This document shows, piece after piece, positions 4,082-31,637 of a stretch of 55,168 nucleotides of DNA. The notes under the pieces were generated by a model, which was not told the DNA's origin, searched no databases, and saw only the letters and a list, made by a program, of their open reading frames with translations. This stretch comes from an uncultured Planctomycetia bacterium (GTDB taxonomy: Bacteria > Planctomycetota > Phycisphaerae > Phycisphaerales > SM1A02). The position numbers and the translations under genes are program-made. The stretch is from assembly GCA_937919205.1 (NCBI GenBank), contig CALFOZ010000141.1:1-55168 (forward strand). Reading direction: 5' to 3'. Position 1 is the first letter of the stretch, and each line of letters starts with the position of its first letter.

Positions 4082-5671
4082 TCACCACGGTTGAAGCGAA
4101 ACGATGATTCTTTTGGCCAACCCTGCCACGCGTTCCTTGAATGAAAGAATACGTTGTGTCTCGTCCCGCAAGCCAGAGGCGATACGCCTCTCATCTGAAA
4201 TCTGACGCAGTTGCTTGGCAAATTCCGGTCGCCGCTTCAACACTGGCAACACGCTTGTCTTTGCAAATCGCAACAGCGTCACGCCGCTCTGGCCCGCCAT
4301 CACATCCGCCGAGCGCGGTTGATTCAACAGCAACGCCATTTCGCCAAACCAATGCGGAGCGTGAACTTCGATCGGATCCTTATCCTTGAGCACCACACAC
4401 ACTGAGCCGCGCACGATGAGATACATGTGGTCGCTCACTTCGCCTTGACGCACGGCAAGTTCTCCAGGCTGTAGGTCGATTTCTTGCGCGTCACGCGCGA
4501 GTTCGCGTCGCTCCAAACTTCCCATATGCGCCTCATCAAATAAAGGACACTTGGCCACGATCTGTTCCATTTTGGCAACACGTTCCTCAATCACCGCCAC
4601 GTGCTCGGCGTCGGCTTTCATGTCCACCATGCGAATGGTTCGCAGTGGAAATGGAATCTCAATATCACTTTCGCGCAACGCATACCACACTCGGCTGAGC
4701 ACGCTGTCCACAATATCATCCAACATGCGTCGATCTGGCACCCAGAAACGCAATTCATAATTGATTGAAGAATCGCCATAATTCAATACAAGCACAGCAG
4801 GCGCGGGCGATTTCAACACCGCGGAATCTTGCCGCAACACTTGCAACATGACATCCTTGGCGCGCATGGGCGGCGTGGTGTAGGAAATGCCAACAGTGCG
4901 CCGCACGCGCAAGGCGCGCGTTGGTTGATCCAAATTCAAAACTTCTTTTAACAACAACTCGCCGTTGGCCACGATCAACATTTGTCCATCAAGCGTGTGA
5001 ACGCGCGTGGAGCGCAAACTGGTGTCCCACACTTCTCCTTCAAGACCGCCAATACCAATTTGCACCATGTCGCCTTTTTTAAACACGTGATCGGCCTGCA
5101 GGTCGAAACCAGAGAAAAGATTGGTGAGCGTGCGTTGCAAACCAAGACCCACCACAAACACCAACGCGCCACCGACGCCAATCACCAAGGTTCTGATTGA
5201 ATATTGCCCCGCAAAGTGCACTTGATAAATAATGGAAAGCCCAAGAACCCAAAGACCAAATCGCAACAACGCTTTTTGCAGGCGGATTAAATCGCCGCCT
5301 TGAAGCGTGATACAGACATTGCTTAACACCACCAGCGCGAAACTGACCAGCGCTATCAACAATCCAAACTCCATAGTTGTTCGAAAAACAGGAACACTGA
5401 GAGTGCTTGTTTCATTAGGATTTTGAATGACAATGCTGAGGACATATTCCCAACCCGCGGCGATGCAAGCCCAGCCCAGAACGGCGATAAGCAAACCCAA
5501 ACCCAAACCGCGGGAATCCCCTTTGGTCTTTAGAAATAGTTTCACGCCTAGCACCGTGCAATACACGGCAAGCAACCAAATCACGGCGTGAAAGAGTGGG
5601 TGCATTGGCGGAATTGACTCGATCGCCGACTCCACTTGGACTACGGGTTGCATATTTGCATTCTGACGCAT
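4082..5671 (-). CDS. Cyclic-nucleotide-gated mechanosensitive-type channel (bCNG, MscS superfamily)
   Basis: 529 residues. Four or five membrane helices occupy residues about 25-190. The MscS pore-lining helix and beta domain follow at about 165-350, with LGLQRTLTNLFSGF and the strand region after KKGDMVQIG. A cyclic-nucleotide-binding domain sits at about 375-485. Its phosphate-binding cassette reads FGEMALLLNQPRSADV (442-457), with the Glu and Arg (444, 453) expected of a real cNMP binder. The organisation matches the bacterial cyclic-nucleotide-gated channels, which open on ligand and respond poorly to membrane tension. The ATG at 5671 is preferred. The frame stays open to 5983, but that part is hydrophilic, low in plausibility and overlaps the divergent gene at 5726. 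A class III nucleotide cyclase is encoded at 27330, a possible source of ligand. Confidence 0.88.
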   Translation of the reverse strand: MRQNANMQPVVQVESAIESIPPMHPLFHAVIWLLAVYCTVLGVKLFLKTKGDSRGLGLGLLIAVLGWACIAAGWEYVLSIVIQNPNETSTLSVPVFRTTMEFGLLIALVSFALVVLSNVCITLQGGDLIRLQKALLRFGLWVLGLSIIYQVHFAGQYSIRTLVIGVGGALVFVVGLGLQRTLTNLFSGFDLQADHVFKKGDMVQIGIGGLEGEVWDTSLRSTRVHTLDGQMLIVANGELLLKEVLNLDQPTRALRVRRTVGISYTTPPMRAKDVMLQVLRQDSAVLKSPAPAVLVLNYGDSSINYELRFWVPDRRMLDDIVDSVLSRVWYALRESDIEIPFPLRTIRMVDMKADAEHVAVIEERVAKMEQIVAKCPLFDEAHMGSLERRELARDAQEIDLQPGELAVRQGEVSDHMYLIVRGSVCVVLKDKDPIEVHAPHWFGEMALLLNQPRSADVMAGQSGVTLLRFAKTSVLPVLKRRPEFAKQLRQISDERRIASGLRDETQRILSFKERVAGLAKRIIVSLQPW

Positions 5672-5725
5672 TTTTAGTTTCTTTGCCACCACGCCAGGAA
5701 ATTCAAATGTGATTATGCTTGAATT

Positions 5726-6259
5726 ATGATTCGAACCACATGCATCACCGTTGTTAGCTCGATTGCCGCAATGAGTTGTGCTTCCGCAACGCAACCTTTC
5801 GCTGGCGCGCCCGCCACGCGGCTCACGCCCGCGCCCGCAATCACGGCCGACATCAATACAAAAATGGACAAGTGGCAGACTGTGGTCTACGCCAACCGCC
5901 GCCCTGGCGCCGACGTGATTTTTTATGGCATTGCAGATTGGCGCGACGCTGTTGCGCAGGCGAAAGCCGCTGGCGCCAAGCAAGTGAGTTTGATATTTGT
6001 TTTCGATGGTCCAGCGCTGGTGCTGGCGTTGAACGACGCGGCGTTTAACCGCGTCATGGGAACCACCACTGGTAATCCATGGAAAAGTTTGGTGGGTGAT
6101 CTTCAGAAATCTGGCGCAGACATTGAAGTATGCGGCGGACGCATGAAGGATTTAGGCGTGGGCAACGCCGATCTTTTACCTTCAGTGAAAGTGGACACCG
6201 ACGGTTGGTTGCGCGTGATGGAATTGCAATCCAAGGGCTACACGCTGTTTCAAACTTGA
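5726..6259 (+). CDS. Exported DsrE-like protein
   Basis: 177 residues. A signal peptide (residues 1-21, MIRTTCITVVSSIAAMSCAS) precedes a DsrE/DsrF-type fold. The strand-helix pattern includes QVSLIFVFDGPALVLAL, then GADIEVCGGRMKDLGV with a cysteine at the position often conserved in this superfamily, then LLPSVKVDTDGWLRVMEL and a C-terminal GYTLF. Sulfur relay is known for cytoplasmic DsrEFH; exported single-domain relatives have no settled function, so a role in periplasmic sulfur or redox chemistry is only a guess. The gene is divergent from the bCNG channel, 54 bp away, and convergent with the chemoreceptor at 6354. Confidence 0.75.
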   Translation: MIRTTCITVVSSIAAMSCASATQPFAGAPATRLTPAPAITADINTKMDKWQTVVYANRRPGADVIFYGIADWRDAVAQAKAAGAKQVSLIFVFDGPALVLALNDAAFNRVMGTTTGNPWKSLVGDLQKSGADIEVCGGRMKDLGVGNADLLPSVKVDTDGWLRVMELQSKGYTLFQT

Positions 6260-21474: not shown

Positions 21475-21676
21475 GCGGATCATTCTAACAATGTCCGCGT
21501 GTTCTTCACGGCGCCGCGCATGCGTCTGAACGCAATTTTTGTGGCGACCAATTTCAATACAAGCCAATGCACGCCCGCGTCTTTCTTACAAAGTTTGCAT
21601 GATCAAGTCTGTTGGGTGAAACAATCGCCGCTATCTTCACGCCATGTGCGGCGTGCAAAATTCTCACGGCGGAGAA

Positions 21677-23638
21677 ATGAATTCCAATGAAGCGTCACCC
21701 GCATGGTGGCGCAATGATTTGTGGATTCCATGTGTCGCTGGAATTTTTCTTGCGCTTGCATGGTGCTTGCAACGCGATTGGATTGTGGTGAATGACAACG
21801 CGTTCCTGCAATGGGGCCTGCCAAGCGGATGGGTGGTCACCAATCGCGGATTTTTTCTGGCGTGCTTGACGGTGGTGTATGTGGTGGCGGGTTGGAACGC
21901 ATTTTTAGTTGGCCTGCGCTTGGCGTTAAGGGCGCGGCTTGATGTTGATTTTCTCATGGTTGTCGCCGCGATCGCGGCGGCGTGGATTGGCGAAGGTATT
22001 GACGGCGGATTACTGCTGTTTTTGTTTTCGCTAGGAAACGCGCTGGAACATTACGCCATGGGCCAGTCGCGTAAAGCCATACGCGCGCTGGGAAAGTTGG
22101 CGCCCAAATTTGCAAAGGTGAAACGCGACGCGCAAGAAATTGATATCGCCGTGGAGCAACTTGTTGTGGGCGATGTCGTGGTTGTGCGCCCTGGCGAGCG
22201 CCTGCCCGCCGACGGAATTATTTTGGCGGGCAGTGGTGACATTGATCAAAGTCCAATCACTGGCGAAAGCGTGCCCGTTGAAAAAGATGTGAACGACGAA
22301 GTTTTCGCCGGCACCGTGAATGGCGATGGCAGTCTTGAGATTCGAGTATCGCGTCCAAGTTCGCAATCCACCATGTCACGCATGATTCTTTTGGTGGAGG
22401 ACGCGCAACAACAGAAGGGGCAAACCCAACGCGCCGCGGAAGCGTTCACGCGCGTGTATGTGCCTTGCGTTGTTGTGGGCACAGTGTTGGCGCTTGTCAT
22501 TCCAACATATTTTGGATGGCTTCCCTTTGATGAATCATTGCTACGCGCCATTGCCATGCTTGTTGGAGCAAGTCCATGCGCGCTTGCCATTAGCACGCCC
22601 GCCGCGGTTCTTTCTGGCGTGGCACGCGCCGCGCGATCTGGCGTGTTGATCAAAGGCGGTTTGCATTTGGAGGGTCTGGCCATTCTGCGCGCCATTGCGC
22701 TTGATAAAACTGGCACACTAACCAATGGTCGTCCGCAAATTGTGGGCCTGTTCACCGCAGATGGCGTGAGTGAGCGTGAACTTTTAGAAATAGCCAGCGC
22801 TATTGAGCAACGTAGCGAGCACCCCATTGCGCGCGCCATTGTGCGCGCCGCGGAGGCGAAAGATATTCGTGTTGCCGCCGCCGAAAATGTAAGCGCCATT
22901 AAAGGCAAGGGCGTAACGGGAACTGTGGCGGGAAAAATAATTGAAGTGGGTTCCGCGCGGCTTATGCGCGAAAGCGGCGCGACGCTGAGTGACTCCATGA
23001 ATAGCGCGTTAGCTCAGAATGATGCCAGCGGCCACACCGTGGTTGTGTTGAGTTGTGGTGACAAGGTTTTGGGTTTCATTGCGCTTGCGGATCGTCCGCG
23101 CGCAGAAGCCGCGCAAGCCATTCGCATGTTGCACGCCTTGAATGTTCGTCCCGTGATCATGCTCACAGGCGATCGCAAAGGAGTGGCGCAATCCATTGCC
23201 AACGAAATTGGCGTTGACGAAATCGAAGCGGAACTTTTGCCCGAGGACAAGATCAACCGCGTGAAAGCCTTGCTGGAAAAATATCACGCCATTGGCATGG
23301 TGGGCGACGGCGTGAATGACGCGCCCGCGCTGGCCATGGCCACGGTTGGAATTGCCATGGGCCGCGGCGGCACGGATGTGGCGCTTGAGGCCGCGGACAT
23401 TGCGCTGATGGCCGATGATTTACAGCGCATTCCATTTGCGATCGGCCTGGCGCGTTTCGCGCGCACAGTGATCCGCCAAAATGTGGCGGTGAGCATGGGC
23501 ATGGTTTTTATTCTGATTCCGCTGACTTTAAGCGGCCTGATTGGCACCACTCTGGCCGTGATCATGCACGAAGGAAGCACTGTGGCGGTGGTCATCAACG
23601 GCTTGCGACTGCTGGCATTTCGAGAACCAAAAAAATAA
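21677..23638 (+). CDS. Heavy-metal P-type ATPase, SPC motif (P1B-4-like)
   Basis: 653 residues. It has TGES (195-198), the ion-binding SPC motif (299-301) instead of CPC, phosphorylation site DKTGT (Asp343), HP (382-383) and a GDGVNDAPA hinge. No N-terminal HMA metal-binding domain is present. A late membrane-segment motif MHEGSTVAVVINGLRLL matches the HEG(S/G)T signature that, with SPC, marks P1B-4 pumps reported to export Co, Zn, Cd or Fe. The ATG at 21677 is chosen because GGAG lies 2-6 nt before it; the frame opens at 21644. The gene is monocistronic, with no metal-responsive regulator beside it. Confidence 0.92.
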   Translation: MNSNEASPAWWRNDLWIPCVAGIFLALAWCLQRDWIVVNDNAFLQWGLPSGWVVTNRGFFLACLTVVYVVAGWNAFLVGLRLALRARLDVDFLMVVAAIAAAWIGEGIDGGLLLFLFSLGNALEHYAMGQSRKAIRALGKLAPKFAKVKRDAQEIDIAVEQLVVGDVVVVRPGERLPADGIILAGSGDIDQSPITGESVPVEKDVNDEVFAGTVNGDGSLEIRVSRPSSQSTMSRMILLVEDAQQQKGQTQRAAEAFTRVYVPCVVVGTVLALVIPTYFGWLPFDESLLRAIAMLVGASPCALAISTPAAVLSGVARAARSGVLIKGGLHLEGLAILRAIALDKTGTLTNGRPQIVGLFTADGVSERELLEIASAIEQRSEHPIARAIVRAAEAKDIRVAAAENVSAIKGKGVTGTVAGKIIEVGSARLMRESGATLSDSMNSALAQNDASGHTVVVLSCGDKVLGFIALADRPRAEAAQAIRMLHALNVRPVIMLTGDRKGVAQSIANEIGVDEIEAELLPEDKINRVKALLEKYHAIGMVGDGVNDAPALAMATVGIAMGRGGTDVALEAADIALMADDLQRIPFAIGLARFARTVIRQNVAVSMGMVFILIPLTLSGLIGTTLAVIMHEGSTVAVVINGLRLLAFREPKK

Positions 23639-25484: not shown

Positions 25485-25883
25485 TTATTGCGCTGGCGAT
25501 GACACCGCCGTCGCGTTCACGCGCGTCCACGAGTGATCCATTTGCTTTTCACGCAACGGGCAAAAGTCTTTCACTTTGCGCGCGATCAACAACGAGCCAT
25601 CAATCTTAATTTCATAGACGCCAGTTTCATCCACGCACAATTTGGTCTCTGGCCGATTACGAAAGGTGAGGATTTTCCCATCAAAGGTGTAGTCGCCCAC
25701 AATTGGCCTGGTCTTTGGCCCCGTGAAAGTGAGCGTGAACAAGCCCGTGTCTTCGCAGGTGAGCGTGGTGGAGTCAAAATCACTTTTCCAAGAGCCAATT
25801 AAATTGAGGCTGGAAACCTTTTCGGGCTTCGCGGCGCAACTGGCCAACAAAAGTATCGCCACGATTTGAAGAATGCGCTTCAC
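25485..25883 (-). CDS. Small lipoprotein, last gene of the cupredoxin-cyclase operon
   Basis: 132 residues starting with GTG at 25883, one nucleotide after the porin stop codon, which implies coupled translation. The signal peptide ends in the lipobox LLLASC, so lipidation is expected at Cys16. The mature part looks like a small beta-barrel or lipocalin-type domain (LIGSWKSDFDSTTLTCEDTGLFTLTF, shown here only as landmarks LIGSWKSD and LFTLTFTG), with four further cysteines that may form disulfides. The upstream frame is open to 26081 but lies inside the porin gene. Function is unknown; position in the operon suggests it works in the envelope with the porin. Confidence 0.72.
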   Translation of the reverse strand: MKRILQIVAILLLASCAAKPEKVSSLNLIGSWKSDFDSTTLTCEDTGLFTLTFTGPKTRPIVGDYTFDGKILTFRNRPETKLCVDETGVYEIKIDGSLLIARKVKDFCPLREKQMDHSWTRVNATAVSSPAQ

Positions 25884-25884
25884 G

Positions 25885-27333
25885 CTAGAACTGTATAACA
25901 AGTTCGACCGCGAAGAGGTTTTGTCCTGGATCAATTGTGCCCGCCTCCTCCGTGTAGCTGTACTGCACCTTGAATTGCGTGAAGCGATTGATCTTGAAAC
26001 CAAGACACGCGTCCGCACGCCACAAATTGTTGTACCAAGGAGTTTCAGACCCAGCTCCCGGACCCGTTGCGGGAGTGACATTGGAATACATCTGCTGATT
26101 CCAGCGCCCCGAAAGCCAAAATTGCGGCATGAACTTCCACTTGCTCTCTATGAAATAACTGTAAGCGCCAATGTTGCCAACCGCCTTGCCAGTTCTCGCA
26201 TCTGGAACCTCATATTGACTCCACGCAAATTCGCTCCAGAGTTCAATCGGACCATGCGCGTAGGAAATATCCGTGCCCACCACATTTTGACGCGACTCGC
26301 CAATGGAAGAACCCGCTTTGCTTGTGGTTGAAAAACGATCGTACGCCGCCTGACTTATATATGAACCACTGCTTCCACTCACTCCAATATTCCACGCGGC
26401 ATCGGGTCGATATCCCGCGCGCCCTGTGAACGTTGGGTAGTTGAAACCGCGGTTCCACAAGTCCCACTCACTAGGCCGGCTTGAAAGCGAGGCGTTCTTC
26501 ATTTCAAATGCCCAATCAAGTTGTTGCAGCGTTCCCACCGTGCCGTTCAGTTGAAAGCCACTGGCGTAACTGGGTCCCCACACGATTGGAATCCATTTTG
26601 TGACTGGTGGAGAAGCACTATTTTTTCTGTTCACCAAGGATGTTGTGTTGGGCGCGATGCCCGCGCCAGCGTTGCCATCCGTAACAGAAGTCATTTGCCC
26701 ATACATCATGGGCGCGTTAATAAGCGAGTTCTGCGTGGAGAAATGCCTGTTGGTCCATTGACCAAATGCGGTCTGGAACTTTCCGCCTTTAAAATTTAAC
26801 ACCGGCGTGTCAAACGGCGTGAGCTGTGTGTAATACTCCGCCGGTTGCGATTGCACGGAAGTTTCAGTGGGATCAAAGCCGCGATTCACCAATCCCAAGA
26901 ACACAAATTCAAGGTGCTTGGAAATATCCAATGTGAACAAGCCACTTAATGTTGGCGCAAAGATTTGTCCGTTGGTGGTTTGAATAAATCCAGGCGGCGG
27001 CGTGCTGAACACCATGTAATCCAATGTCAACCACACATCGGCGTTGAAACTTATTTGTCCATCTTCGGTGCCAAAGGATTGAAAATCGCGCAAGCGTTCA
27101 AGAAATGATTCCATTGGATCCGCCGCATCCGTGGTGGTGGTGATTTGCTCAACCGCCGACTCCGCGGCCACAACTTGCGCGATCGTTGCAGGCGTGCCCG
27201 CCGAAGTCGTTGGCGCATCGGCAGTTTGCGCGCTGGCGGTCTGCGAATTTGTTGTCGCGGGAACAACAGGCGCAACTTGCGCGGCGCGCACGGAACTTGC
27301 GCACAGAAGCAACGCGAGCATTGTCTGGTTCAT
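25885..27333 (-). CDS. Outer-membrane beta-barrel (porin-like) protein
   Basis: 482 residues. Signal peptide MNQTMLALLLCASSVRA; an Ala/Thr-rich linker to about residue 70 follows, then alternating amphipathic strands to the C-terminal Phe (AVELVIQF), the classic last-strand signature recognised by BamA. Strand-like stretches near the end include FKVQYSYTEEA and WWLSGRW-type aromatic girdles. It resembles phosphate/anion or carbohydrate-selective porins in length, but no selectivity residue can be named. Its start overlaps the cyclase stop by 4 bp (ATGA), and the lipoprotein starts 1 nt after its stop, so the three are clearly one operon. Confidence 0.82.
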   Translation of the reverse strand: MNQTMLALLLCASSVRAAQVAPVVPATTNSQTASAQTADAPTTSAGTPATIAQVVAAESAVEQITTTTDAADPMESFLERLRDFQSFGTEDGQISFNADVWLTLDYMVFSTPPPGFIQTTNGQIFAPTLSGLFTLDISKHLEFVFLGLVNRGFDPTETSVQSQPAEYYTQLTPFDTPVLNFKGGKFQTAFGQWTNRHFSTQNSLINAPMMYGQMTSVTDGNAGAGIAPNTTSLVNRKNSASPPVTKWIPIVWGPSYASGFQLNGTVGTLQQLDWAFEMKNASLSSRPSEWDLWNRGFNYPTFTGRAGYRPDAAWNIGVSGSSGSYISQAAYDRFSTTSKAGSSIGESRQNVVGTDISYAHGPIELWSEFAWSQYEVPDARTGKAVGNIGAYSYFIESKWKFMPQFWLSGRWNQQMYSNVTPATGPGAGSETPWYNNLWRADACLGFKINRFTQFKVQYSYTEEAGTIDPGQNLFAVELVIQF

Positions 27334-29144
27334 ATTGGCGCTCCCACTGATTGATTTTTATCAACGCTCAATTCAAACGCTTGCACTGGATCGTGAAAAC
27401 CTTTGACTTTCAACGGCGGCAAATCCGCGACAATAAATGTGCTATCTAAATATTGCCGCACACCTTGATCAATATAAAGCGTATTCGCTGGCGCCATGGA
27501 ACACAATCGCGCCGCAAGATTCACGCGCTCGCCAAGCACCGTGTAATTCAAGCGCTTCTTGGAACCCATGCAACCCACAATGATCACGCCAAAGGCCACG
27601 CCAATTCCAATTTCAAATGGATTTTTGGCGTCCTTGTTTAACTGTTGTCGCACTCGCAACATATCCAGGGCGCACGCGGCGGCGCGCGCGGCGTCATCGG
27701 GTTTGCCATTTGGAGCGCCAAAGATGGCCATGACCATGTCGCCCACAAATTTGTCCACCACTCCGCCGTGGCTATAAATCACATCGGTCATGGCGCTCAT
27801 GTGGTCGTTCAACACCGCCACAATTTCGTGCGGCGTAAGGCGATTGGTGAGCGGCGTGAAGCCACGAATATCGGCGAACAACACGGCAATTGGCGCCGCC
27901 GTTCCGCTGACATCAAGCGCGCCAGAAAGCAATTGATCCGTTACCGTGCGATCCGTGACCGCGTCAAGCACGCCGCGATACTTGTCGCGCAACGCAAGGC
28001 CCTCACACATAGTGTTAAAGCGCTCGCCCAATACACCAAGTTCATCGCGCCGAGTCACGGTCACTCGCCCCGTATAGTCGCCGCCGGCAACCTTGCTTGA
28101 TAACAGCGACAGTTGCTTGATTGGTTTGGCTAACCCAATCCCCAGCAAGAACGCCAATACAATGGCGCAGAATGCACCAACAAGCACGGCGACCAGATAT
28201 TTAAAGCCAAGTTGTTGTATTTCTTTCTGCAGAGGCGCCAAACTTGCGGACACCACAAAATACGCTGGCGGAACTTGCTCGTTCAAAACATACGTATGGG
28301 TTAACCAATCCGTGTTCTCTATAGATATTTCTAATTCCATTTGTGACGCTTGTTCAACACCTCTGTCGTCAGCGGGCTGTCCCTGCTTTAGCGAATTCGC
28401 GTCACTTGTTGCATGCGTCTCGCCGATGCGATTGGCATTTGCAACAGCAATGGCGGCAACCAATTTGGCGGCGACCTTGTTCGACTCCAAAATTTGCCCG
28501 CCATACAACTGCGCTCCCAGCAACAACCCATTTTTCATTTCTCCGCCATCCGCCATACGCATTGGCTTGGTTGCGGCGTTTTCAAAAATCAAGGCAAGTG
28601 TTCCTAAAAAACCTTCGCCGTCCACATCGTCAATGGGCGTGCAGATCATTTCATAGGCTTTCTCCTCAAAGGCGATATACACAATGCGTTGGGTTGGAGC
28701 GCCAGGTTGCAACTTCAACTGCTTCACGGCCACAATCACCGCGTCGTCAAGTTTGGGCAACCCAGTTCCTGGTGCAATCACTTCATTGCTGGCGTTAAGA
28801 AATAAATATGAATTCGCCTGTCGCTTACCAACCGCGGTTTCGCCTTGCGCCGCGAAGAATTCTCGAAGCTCGTCGTCTGCAACGCCATACAGTAAGCCGC
28901 GATCACTTTGTTGCAGTGCCGCAAAAATTCTTGTGGATCGCGCAAGTCTTGCGCACCTGGCTTGAATCAGTCCAAGTTCTGCTTCACGAATTCTAATCAC
29001 GCCTTGAAAAGTGGAACGAAATAAATCATTCATTTTCTGTATATACAAATCCCGCGCCGAAACAATGCTATGCACAGAAACAATCGATGTTGAAATCAAC
29101 ATGATGGTCAACATGGCCAAGACAATGCGCGTGGAAAATTTCAC
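27330..29144 (-). CDS. Membrane class III nucleotide cyclase with HAMP domain
   Basis: 604 residues. Transmembrane helix about 7-27, a large periplasmic sensor of about 280 residues (PAS/Cache-like), a second helix about 315-339, HAMP about 340-392 and the cyclase domain about 415-570. Metal-binding Asp425 (FADIRGFT) and Asp469 (VGDMVMAIFG) are present. Lys465 and Thr535 are at the purine-selecting positions typical of adenylyl cyclases, and transition-state residues Asn542 and Arg546 are intact. An active cAMP-forming enzyme is expected. It is preceded by the cupredoxin gene with a 191-bp gap and overlaps the porin gene by 4 bp. The sensor faces the same compartment as the cupredoxin and lipoprotein, suggesting the enzyme senses a state of the periplasm. 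Confidence 0.9.
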   Translation of the reverse strand: MKFSTRIVLAMLTIMLISTSIVSVHSIVSARDLYIQKMNDLFRSTFQGVIRIREAELGLIQARCARLARSTRIFAALQQSDRGLLYGVADDELREFFAAQGETAVGKRQANSYLFLNASNEVIAPGTGLPKLDDAVIVAVKQLKLQPGAPTQRIVYIAFEEKAYEMICTPIDDVDGEGFLGTLALIFENAATKPMRMADGGEMKNGLLLGAQLYGGQILESNKVAAKLVAAIAVANANRIGETHATSDANSLKQGQPADDRGVEQASQMELEISIENTDWLTHTYVLNEQVPPAYFVVSASLAPLQKEIQQLGFKYLVAVLVGAFCAIVLAFLLGIGLAKPIKQLSLLSSKVAGGDYTGRVTVTRRDELGVLGERFNTMCEGLALRDKYRGVLDAVTDRTVTDQLLSGALDVSGTAAPIAVLFADIRGFTPLTNRLTPHEIVAVLNDHMSAMTDVIYSHGGVVDKFVGDMVMAIFGAPNGKPDDAARAAACALDMLRVRQQLNKDAKNPFEIGIGVAFGVIIVGCMGSKKRLNYTVLGERVNLAARLCSMAPANTLYIDQGVRQYLDSTFIVADLPPLKVKGFHDPVQAFELSVDKNQSVGAPI

Positions 29145-29335
29145 GCGTTTTCACCTGGTAGTGTTGGTCGCAATCGAATTAACATTCTTTCATTCCTTGC
29201 AAACACAATTGGGCGCACGACACGCCGCTACACTGAAAATTAATTTTTGCAACACGGTTTCGCGTGTTGCCATGTGGTTTATAAAAGCGCTGATGCTTGT
29301 GACTTTTGTTGGTTGTTGCTTGGACACGCGAATAT

Positions 29336-30298
29336 TTATTTTGGTTTCGCGCCTCCTGGCGCTTGATTGGACCAATCCACTTTTGCGGTGGCCCCTTCCT
29401 TTAAGTCGACCGTCATTTCAAAAGATTCCTTGGGGCCAAGCCACACGTGGAATGTGTGCGATCCCGAGGGCAATTTTGGCAATGTGAAATTGCCTTTGGC
29501 GTCGGTCAATACAAAGTACGGCGTATCAACCACCACAATTTGCGCGCGCATGTGCTCGTGAATTTCACAAAACAAACTCACCGTGCCTGGCTTGTCAAAC
29601 ACCACGGCGTCAGGCTCCTCGCCTGCGCGGTAGCGCCCCAAATCAAATTTGCGCGCCGCGGAATAACTAAATACCGAGTGGTACATGGGGTCCTTGTTTG
29701 GAAACGAAACAGGCGTTCCTATTTGCACCGCCATCACACAGGGACGAAATTGAAATCCGCGCTGATCCATGGCTGGCGCTTTCGCTATTGGCACGGACTT
29801 GGAATCAAGCGGCGGGAAAGAACCCACCATCCACACCACGCTTGTTGGCGGATCTGGTGGGTCGACAACCGTTGTAGTGCGCGCGCCGTATTTTTCTTTG
29901 GTACTGGGCGCAACTTTCAGAGGTCGCACGGGTACAACGCCTTCAAGAGTGGCCGTGCCCGCGGGCTTTACAGCACTGACCGCGGGCGCAGTTGGCGTGC
30001 TTGTTGTTGCTGACGTTGCAGTTGCTGGCGCCGCAGTTGTTGTTGCTGACGTTGCAGTTGCTGGCGCCGCCGTTGTTGTTGCTGAAGTTGAAGTTACTGG
30101 CGCCGTCTGCGCCGCGGATTTTTGCTCTGGAGATTGTTGATTTATTTCTTGCGATTGCCGCCGTCCTTCGACACTTGCAATTGCGCCGTTGAACAAGGTA
30201 TTTGAGGCATTCGGGCCATCCGCCACAACATTTTTTGCGGCAAATAGAAACGCCGCAATAATTCCTAGCCTGCCTATGAATAGACACTTATGAATCAT
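29336..30298 (-). CDS. Exported cupredoxin-like protein with Ala/Thr repeat linker
   Basis: 320 residues. Signal peptide at 1-26; an Ala/Thr/Ser-rich linker at about 60-110 includes a 12-residue repeat (APATATSATTTA). The cupredoxin domain at about 115-258 keeps a full type-1 copper ligand set: His207 in MYHSV, then Cys244, His247 and Met250 in CEIHEHM. A short carboxypeptidase-regulatory-like beta domain follows (VLTDAKGNFTLPKLPSGSHTF). Proteins of this two-part plan are often labelled methylamine-utilisation or plastocyanin-like, but substrates are mostly unknown. It is first in a same-strand set with cyclase, porin and lipoprotein; dyads upstream at 30312-30353 and 30390-30408 may control the operon. 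Confidence 0.85.
   Translation of the reverse strand: MIHKCLFIGRLGIIAAFLFAAKNVVADGPNASNTLFNGAIASVEGRRQSQEINQQSPEQKSAAQTAPVTSTSATTTAAPATATSATTTAAPATATSATTSTPTAPAVSAVKPAGTATLEGVVPVRPLKVAPSTKEKYGARTTTVVDPPDPPTSVVWMVGSFPPLDSKSVPIAKAPAMDQRGFQFRPCVMAVQIGTPVSFPNKDPMYHSVFSYSAARKFDLGRYRAGEEPDAVVFDKPGTVSLFCEIHEHMRAQIVVVDTPYFVLTDAKGNFTLPKLPSGSHTFHVWLGPKESFEMTVDLKEGATAKVDWSNQAPGGAKPK
30001..30108. repeat. Three 36-bp in-frame tandem repeats inside the cupredoxin gene
   Basis: Units at 30001-30036, 30037-30072 and 30073-30108; the first two are almost identical, the third is diverged. Each encodes 12 residues of the Ala/Thr linker (residues about 64-99), so copy-number change would alter only linker length without shifting the frame. 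Confidence 0.85.
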
Positions 30299-30408: not shown

Positions 30409-30454
30409 CTTGGCTTGGCGATGCAAAGTATTTCAACGCATCCAACCGAGCCTG

Positions 30455-30485
30455 AAGGATCCAGCTCGAGGTGAGCTGGATCCTT
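30455..30485 (-). terminator. Strong hairpin at the 3' end of the 30492-31235 gene
   Basis: Perfect 13-bp arms AAGGATCCAGCTC (30455-30467) and GAGCTGGATCCTT (30473-30485) with a 5-nt loop, starting 7 bp past the stop codon. No T-run follows on the minus strand; the T-rich bases lie on the plus side. It may be a Rho-assisted end or a 3' stabilising hairpin rather than a classic intrinsic terminator. Confidence 0.6.
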
Positions 30486-30491
30486 TCATTT

Positions 30492-31235
30492 TTATTCTGC
30501 CTCTTTCATTTCGCCACCTTCTGGTTTGGGCAAGAAGCGATCACGATCCACTTTCTTGCCGCTTTCAGTTGCATTTCCTTCATCGTGCGTCCGTGCCGCG
30601 CCACCAAGCAAGTCAATGAATTCGCTCACGCCTTCGGTTGGTGGCAAATCACGTACGGGCTCCGTCAAGATTTCGTGAAACAGTCTGGAATATAATTCAC
30701 GATCGCTCAAACCGTCCGTATGCAAAAGGAACACGCCCAAGTCACCAAGCGACTCCACCACCTCCCACAATTTCTCATGCAACTCGCGCTCATCAAGATC
30801 ATCAGGCGCGGGTACCGCCAACCCCAGATCCATAAGTTGCTTCAAGTTGCTAGTCATGGGCGCCATTTCCAGGTCGTACACCAGCATCCAGTAAAATCGA
30901 TCCACGCAATCGCCGCGCTCCGTTGCGTCGACCACCAATTGATCAATCGCCTTCTCGCGCAACTTTGAAACATCCAAGCGCAACCCACGCTTGCGCGGCC
31001 GCGTTGGCGGCGCCACTTCACCAGCATCTTGCGCGCCATCTTCGCCAGCATTCATTTGATGCGCCAATGCGCCTGGTTGGTTCACTTGGTCATGCGCCTG
31101 AACCTCACCCACCTTGCCAAATTTGCCGCGCCCCCCCGCGCTTTGTGCGCGCGCGCGCTTCTGCTGCTCTGTGCCATTTGCGCCCTCTTGCATTGCTGCC
31201 TCCGTGCCCCCATGTAAAGATTTAATCGCGACCAT
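30492..31235 (-). CDS. Cytoplasmic protein of unknown function
   Basis: 247 residues beginning MVAIKSLHGG; the ATG at 31235 is fixed by a near-perfect AAAGGAGG sequence just upstream. Residues 1-85 are polar, Gln/Gly/Ala-rich and probably disordered. Residues about 90-200 form a compact acidic helical domain, with landmarks DVSKLREKAIDQLV, DRFYWMLVYDLEMAP and LHEKLWEVVESLGDLGVFL. The C-terminus is again polar. No family was recognised. The strong ribosome-binding site suggests good expression. It is divergent from the second PAPGA-tail protein across a 402-bp gap. Confidence 0.7.
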   Translation of the reverse strand: MVAIKSLHGGTEAAMQEGANGTEQQKRARAQSAGGRGKFGKVGEVQAHDQVNQPGALAHQMNAGEDGAQDAGEVAPPTRPRKRGLRLDVSKLREKAIDQLVVDATERGDCVDRFYWMLVYDLEMAPMTSNLKQLMDLGLAVPAPDDLDERELHEKLWEVVESLGDLGVFLLHTDGLSDRELYSRLFHEILTEPVRDLPPTEGVSEFIDLLGGAARTHDEGNATESGKKVDRDRFLPKPEGGEMKEAE

Positions 31236-31637
31236 TTTTTGGCCTCCTTTCAAAGAAGTCGCACCATAAATGGATTCACAACGATAAAAAAATTTGCTCC
31301 CTTTTTTCCGCAACTAATTTTTGCGCGTGCGAAAGCGTGCGCGACTGCACTTTATGACCCGCCACCTCTGGTTTCATTGAAATATGCTTGAATGCAAGAC
31401 CGTTAGCGGATACTAAACTATGTCCAAGACAGAGTTTGGCGCACGCGTCGTACTAGAAGTCCTATAACAATATTTCCCGCGACTGCCTCGCCGCTGAATA
31501 TAAAAATTAAAAATGTACTATTTTCGGACAATTTATTTGCCTCACCACATTCTTAAGGCAAGTTACTAGTGAATCGTTCACTTTCACTACGCTTCAATTT
31601 CATTTCCTTTTTCACTCACTAAATTAAGGATTACACA
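31236..31637. other. 402-bp divergent intergenic region
   Basis: No gene is credible here. It must hold the promoters of the unknown gene (minus strand) and of the PAPGA-tail gene (plus strand). The only structure I see is the dyad AGTGAA-TCG-TTCACT at 31568-31582, about 56 bp before the ATG at 31638. The stretch after 31480 is richer in A and T than its surroundings. Confidence 0.5.

Follow-up and report, generated by a model that had tools for sequence, protein, structure and literature searches.

Domains of the dCache type commonly bind small molecules directly. In the autoinducer-2 receptor of Vibrio, the dCache sensor LuxQ reads a separate periplasmic protein, LuxP, which is of the sugar-binding type and is not a cupredoxin, and to our knowledge no porin gene belongs to this system. 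A periplasmic cupredoxin which works with an outer-membrane barrel protein is known from the iron-oxidation chain of rusticyanin and Cyc2, in which Cyc2 bears a haem domain and no signalling enzyme is known to take part. For a gene pair found in Pseudomonadota, encoding a so-called 'methylamine utilization protein' and an EAL-domain protein, no functional description was identified in the titles and abstracts of the open-access literature.

The cassette presented here combines known parts in a new way, and it is broader than one window shows. Its conserved core consists of three genes, encoding a cupredoxin, a sensor and a porin, and is present in Planctomycetota and Verrucomicrobiota. A published description of such a cassette was not found in open-access titles and abstracts, a source outside which most subscription journals lie; within that scope, this agrees with the sequence-only reading of the locus, in which no described system with this gene set was known.

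Gene layout and predicted proteins of the locus

The window, a stretch of 55,168 nucleotides, belongs to an assembly of 2.49 Mb in 241 contigs which is 95.6% complete, and its closest named relatives are planctomycete bins. The locus contains the following features:

29336-30298, minus strand, cupredoxin gene, 320 aa
29145-29335, minus strand, gap of 191 nt between the cupredoxin and sensor genes
27330-29144, minus strand, gene for a dCache-HAMP-class III cyclase sensor, 604 aa, GTG start
25885-27333, minus strand, gene for an OprP/OprO-like porin, 482 aa
25485-25883, minus strand, lipoprotein gene, GTG at 25883, 132 aa, lipobox LLASC
30454-30486, strand not assigned, hairpin of 15 pairs, its T-rich tail being on the plus strand

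The four open reading frames on the minus strand, the 4 bp shared by the cyclase and porin genes (27330-27333) and the spacing of 1 nt between the porin stop and the GTG of the lipoprotein gene were all found as described before. The tight packing ascribed to the whole group applies to the cyclase, porin and lipoprotein genes, but not to the cupredoxin gene, owing to its distance from the cyclase gene. A promoter scan revealed no consensus promoter in the region 29145-29335. The hairpin is located between the cupredoxin gene and a minus-strand gene at 30492-31313, just downstream of the latter, and may mark where the transcription unit is bounded, with terminator-like hairpins being about as frequent in the region as in shuffled sequence according to a terminator scan.

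The cupredoxin is composed of a signal peptide, a linker rich in Thr, Ala and Pro, an amicyanin-like type-1 copper domain and a C-terminal carboxypeptidase-regulatory-like domain. It contains the two His, one Cys and one Met of type-1 copper sites in cupredoxin order, and the four ligands noticed before in the window protein, H207, C244, H247 and M250, were shown by alignment to be invariant in 32 of 32 cupredoxins. The motif C-x2-H-x2-M, the spacing of which we take to be that of amicyanin, is common to both proteins, whereas the additional C-terminal domain distinguishes the window cupredoxin from amicyanin. The amicyanin chain 1sfd was obtained as a distant HMM match (E 2.7e-4), and the cupredoxin relative at locus L239 passed the Pfam Copper-bind cut-off. 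Judged from its sequence, the window protein is predicted to be exported and to bind one copper ion. Evidence for a role in methylamine metabolism was not obtained: PF02975, for methylamine dehydrogenase, had no match in the assembly, and the control search likewise matched nowhere and is uninformative. In other planctomycete lineages (L055, L058, L059 and L065), relatives of the cupredoxin gene were seen among genes for cytochrome c oxidase and cytochrome c, and one of them also adjoins a porin_O_P-like gene.

For the sensor, Pfam identified the domains Guanylate_cyc (3.7e-28) and HAMP (5.6e-10). In the predicted model (pLDDT 79), about 280 residues separate the two membrane helices, which bears out the periplasmic sensor part of 280 residues proposed earlier. 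This part is modelled as a dCache fold, with a long N-terminal helix and two PAS-like subdomains between the membrane helices, and solved dCache structures were among the top matches. No Pfam Cache domain was matched in the window sensor itself, and a PDB sequence search with the sensor and porin profiles gave no match, so that the two proteins are placed by fold comparison only. LuxQ was among the best fold matches (Z 12.4-13.2), its structure 3c38 being aligned over 195 residues with Z 13.2 and an rmsd of 4.0; the further matches 2hj9 and 1zhh are complexes of LuxQ with LuxP. The closest dCache folds are those of binders of amino acids, amines, uric acid or citrate. Among 68 sensors, no widely conserved His/Met metal site was identified. 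The only sensor cysteine kept, in 48 of the 68, is C64 (28953-28955, minus strand), which is located in the membrane-proximal periplasmic helix and could form a disulfide across the sensor dimer.

The porin was modelled as a 16-strand outer-membrane barrel (pLDDT 77) and ends in Phe, so that both the strand number and the C-terminal aromatic residue are those of an OprP-like porin. The phosphate porins OprP and OprO were its best structural matches (Z 26.7-27.2), with OprP aligned over 325 residues at Z 27.2 and an rmsd of 4.0. While the fold is common to these proteins, the identity is 14-15%, and none of the Pfam porin models matched the window porin; a search of plasmids likewise gave no match to it. 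The combination of a cupredoxin with an outer-membrane barrel is shared with the rusticyanin-Cyc2 chain, a likeness to be taken as a lead only; however, a CXXCH motif was absent from the window porin on reading.

Linkage and inheritance of the three genes

The porin alignment was used to scan a collection of 84,980 genomes, which identified 152 relatives, the best 80 of which were kept. Sixty porin loci had 3.3 kb or more of sequence upstream of the porin, and HMM mapping showed the order cupredoxin-sensor-porin in 57 of them, a count which describes this porin subfamily, since the loci were picked by porin similarity and many of them are interrelated. Exceptions are L141 and L159, with no partners upstream, and L182, with the same genes in a different order. 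A 4-bp overlap of the sensor stop and the porin start is present in 51 of 68 loci. The tree distances of cupredoxin, sensor and porin are correlated pairwise at 0.94-0.96, as expected for a co-inherited unit, with common descent also giving correlated trees. The origins given as 'Proteobacteria' for L193 and 'Bacteroidia' for L125 were not accepted, since in the porin tree they fall with Verrucomicrobiota (a Limisphaerales) and with planctomycete sequences, in that order; they are probably mislabelled bins. The record title of L159 (Klebsiella pneumoniae) also looks wrong for its sequence.

In the genus of the window, the genes for cupredoxin, cyclase, porin, lipoprotein and malic enzyme are kept in G001, G004, G006 and G009, and in G014 all of these except the cyclase gene, which is absent. 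In G002, G005, G007 and G011, the site holds the upstream gene, the lipoprotein gene and the malic enzyme gene, and the three cassette genes are absent. In G032, from another genus of the same family, the three cassette genes occur together, with neither the flanking genes of the window nor the lipoprotein gene. The absence as a block from otherwise syntenic sites and the stand-alone trio in G032 identify cupredoxin-sensor-porin as the unit which is gained or lost. The lipoprotein, counted as a fourth member in the sequence-only reading, was therefore removed from the unit and belongs to a resident lipoprotein-malic enzyme locus; of the four-gene neighbourhood proposed for a search among genomes, the order of three genes is conserved and the lipoprotein gene lies outside.

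A P-type ATPase (21644-23638) was considered as a copper exporter linked to the cassette. This link was dismissed, since the ATPase gene keeps its place in genomes that lack the cassette, being found at the same site in G002, G005, G007 and G011 where the contig extends far enough, and since cadmium/zinc models outscore copper models. Outside the cassette itself, none of the flanking families is conserved widely, and response regulators come nearest. A gene for a ferritin-like protein was seen to recur downstream of kinase-type cassettes, at L139 (10001-11179) as well as at roughly nine further loci.

The distribution of the cassette is patchy. The porin was identified in 29 of 181 genomes of the window's family, spread over four genera, and in 19 of 289 genomes sampled from the phylum of Brevifollis, to which G205 also belongs. 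Among 61 sampled genomes, mostly from the genus, family and order, 8 contain the porin and 18 a member of the cupredoxin family. Parts of the cassette were also found separately. Pairs of cupredoxin and porin without the sensor are present in G014, G448, G451 and G426, and the loci L242, L243, L244 and L052 show the two genes adjacent with no sensor gene. A lone sensor in G205:C12 (L238, 7060-9057) has neither partner for about 6 kb around it on a 15-kb stretch. In G208, the cupredoxin gene adjoins the sensor gene, with the porin gene elsewhere in the genome.

Exchange of the signalling output

The window sensor contains the residues of class III adenylate cyclases. D425, D469, N542, R546 and T535 are present in 27 of 27 cyclase versions and K465 in 23 of them, the window included. 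In such enzymes, two Asp bind metal, an Asn and an Arg act on the transition state, and a Lys together with Asp or Thr serves adenine recognition; the K465/T535 pair fits the adenylate-cyclase type (Lys/Thr). With these catalytic residues observed, the output of the window sensor is predicted to be that of an adenylate cyclase. According to Pfam, the 68 sensors comprise 27 with a class III cyclase and HAMP, a number in which the filter for N542/R546 concurs, and 41 with HisKA-HATPase_c, three of which also contain a receiver domain. An OmpR-type regulator often adjoins the kinase-version cassettes. On the porin tree, the exchange between cyclase and kinase appears as one change, and cyclase versions occur in both Planctomycetota and Verrucomicrobiota, so that, with a root placed between the phyla, the change would more simply have run from cyclase to kinase. 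A cAMP output, as it had been proposed for the locus, is in line with the residues in the window but too narrow for the family, given the 41 histidine kinases and a GGDEF-EAL output in Pseudomonadota. An MscS-like mechanosensitive channel (4082-5983, minus strand) with a C-terminal cyclic-nucleotide-binding domain was the only match to PF00027 in the assembly and is a candidate target of cAMP. A CRP-type regulator was not found in the 95.6%-complete assembly, and may thus be missing from it.

For the Pseudomonadota, a tblastn search of a cupredoxin against plasmids gave 43 records, and the cupredoxin homology reached E values down to 6e-47. In six annotated plasmid regions of Burkholderiales and Sphingomonadales, the cupredoxin homologue is located directly before an EAL-domain gene, and in a seventh it precedes a truncated cache gene. 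The homologues are mostly annotated as 'methylamine utilization protein', and genes for DUF3034 and truncated haemoglobin lie near most of the pairs. A Sinorhizobium homologue has a different context, beside an SCO family gene. Two of the EAL proteins were scanned by Pfam and have the architecture dCache_3-HAMP-GGDEF-EAL, with one dCache_3 score under the curated cut-off. Comparison of the sensor regions of these two proteins with the window sensor profile by hhalign gave 99.4% with the membrane segments included, and a probability of 86% (E 4.6e-6) when only the periplasmic part was compared, which is suggestive but not conclusive for a remote homology of the periplasmic parts.

These pairs share with the cassette a cupredoxin homologue whose gene directly precedes that of a dCache-HAMP sensor and, in most cases, a nearby gene for a barrel-like protein. 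They differ from the cassette in the GGDEF-EAL output, in the truncated haemoglobin gene present in most and in the barrel, DUF3034 or in one case a DUF4394 protein, which is unrelated in sequence to the window porin. The DUF3034 proteins at these loci end in Phe or Tyr, like outer-membrane barrels; a homology between DUF3034 and the porin was considered and gave no sequence signal.

The cupredoxin as putative input of the sensor

With about an even chance of being correct, the cassette can be read as a signalling module of the envelope, with the sensor responding to the cupredoxin's redox or copper state and the porin serving as the outer-membrane partner. The dCache domain would dock the cupredoxin, comparable to LuxQ and LuxP, and report its copper-loaded or redox state, while the porin would admit a substrate or metal or tether the cupredoxin to the outer membrane. 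The window organism would answer the cupredoxin signal by making cAMP via the cyclase half of the sensor, relatives would couple the same input to a histidine kinase, in many cases accompanied by a response regulator, and in Pseudomonadota a similar cupredoxin would act beside a GGDEF-EAL receptor. A wider version, put forward tentatively, makes a type-1 copper protein the dedicated periplasmic input of a receptor family, by which the redox or copper state at the pore would be passed on to cAMP, a phosphorelay or c-di-GMP in different phyla.

The cupredoxin as input is supported by LuxQ, the precedent for a dCache sensor that reads a protein, and by the position of the cupredoxin gene beside the sensor gene when the porin gene is elsewhere (G208) or replaced (Pseudomonadota). 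The sensor-less pairs in G014, G448, G451 and G426 and the lone sensor in G205 count against it, and the module as such is weakened by the sensor's lack of a widely conserved His/Met metal site, by the unrelated barrels of Pseudomonadota and by the small-molecule binding common in dCache domains. In the lineages with sensor-less pairs, cupredoxin and porin work in the absence of this sensor, which suggests a function proper to the two proteins that the sensor monitors or controls. The idea put forward in the sequence-only reading, that the sensor reads the cupredoxin/porin pair, would fit the linkage. Copper and redox are putative signals, and the cupredoxin relatives beside cytochrome oxidase genes favour a redox or copper signal or task.

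Alternatively, the dCache domain would bind a small molecule entering via the porin, and the cupredoxin would be an enzyme partner or electron carrier for this substrate and not the input. Such a solute receptor would suit the ligands of the closest dCache folds, the nearness of the porin fold to the substrate-selective OprP and OprO and the existence of sensor-less pairs; it is rendered somewhat unlikely by the cupredoxin, which adjoins the sensor even with the porin elsewhere in the genome or swapped for an unrelated barrel. In a second alternative, cupredoxin and porin would be the controlled genes and would handle redox or copper jointly in the outer membrane region, and the sensor would only control their expression or activity in response to an unrelated periplasmic cue. 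This agrees with the sensor-less pairs in several lineages, with the response regulators next to kinase versions and with the cytochrome oxidase genes near cupredoxin relatives, in one case together with a porin_O_P gene. However, the cyclase version shows no dedicated regulator, and the MscS-like channel is the only cNMP-binding protein found in the assembly; we consider this explanation unlikely. Plain proximity in an operon with no joint function would be compatible with the patchy occurrence of the cassette in the window's family and in the phylum of G205, but is disfavoured by the linkage and very improbable, as the order is constant across two phyla despite changing flanks, the genes are present or absent as a block and the 4-bp overlap is conserved.

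With the cupredoxin as input, the cassette points to an undescribed way in which bacteria would sense, at their surface, what state a copper protein is in. If this is true, a copper redox protein would be the receptor subunit feeding two, probably three signalling systems from one input. This would also provide a function for the proteins now labelled 'methylamine utilization protein', explain the recurrent neighbour of DUF3034 and make copper or redox sensing in the envelope testable in cultured strains, for example, Brevifollis gellanilyticus and Caballeronia.
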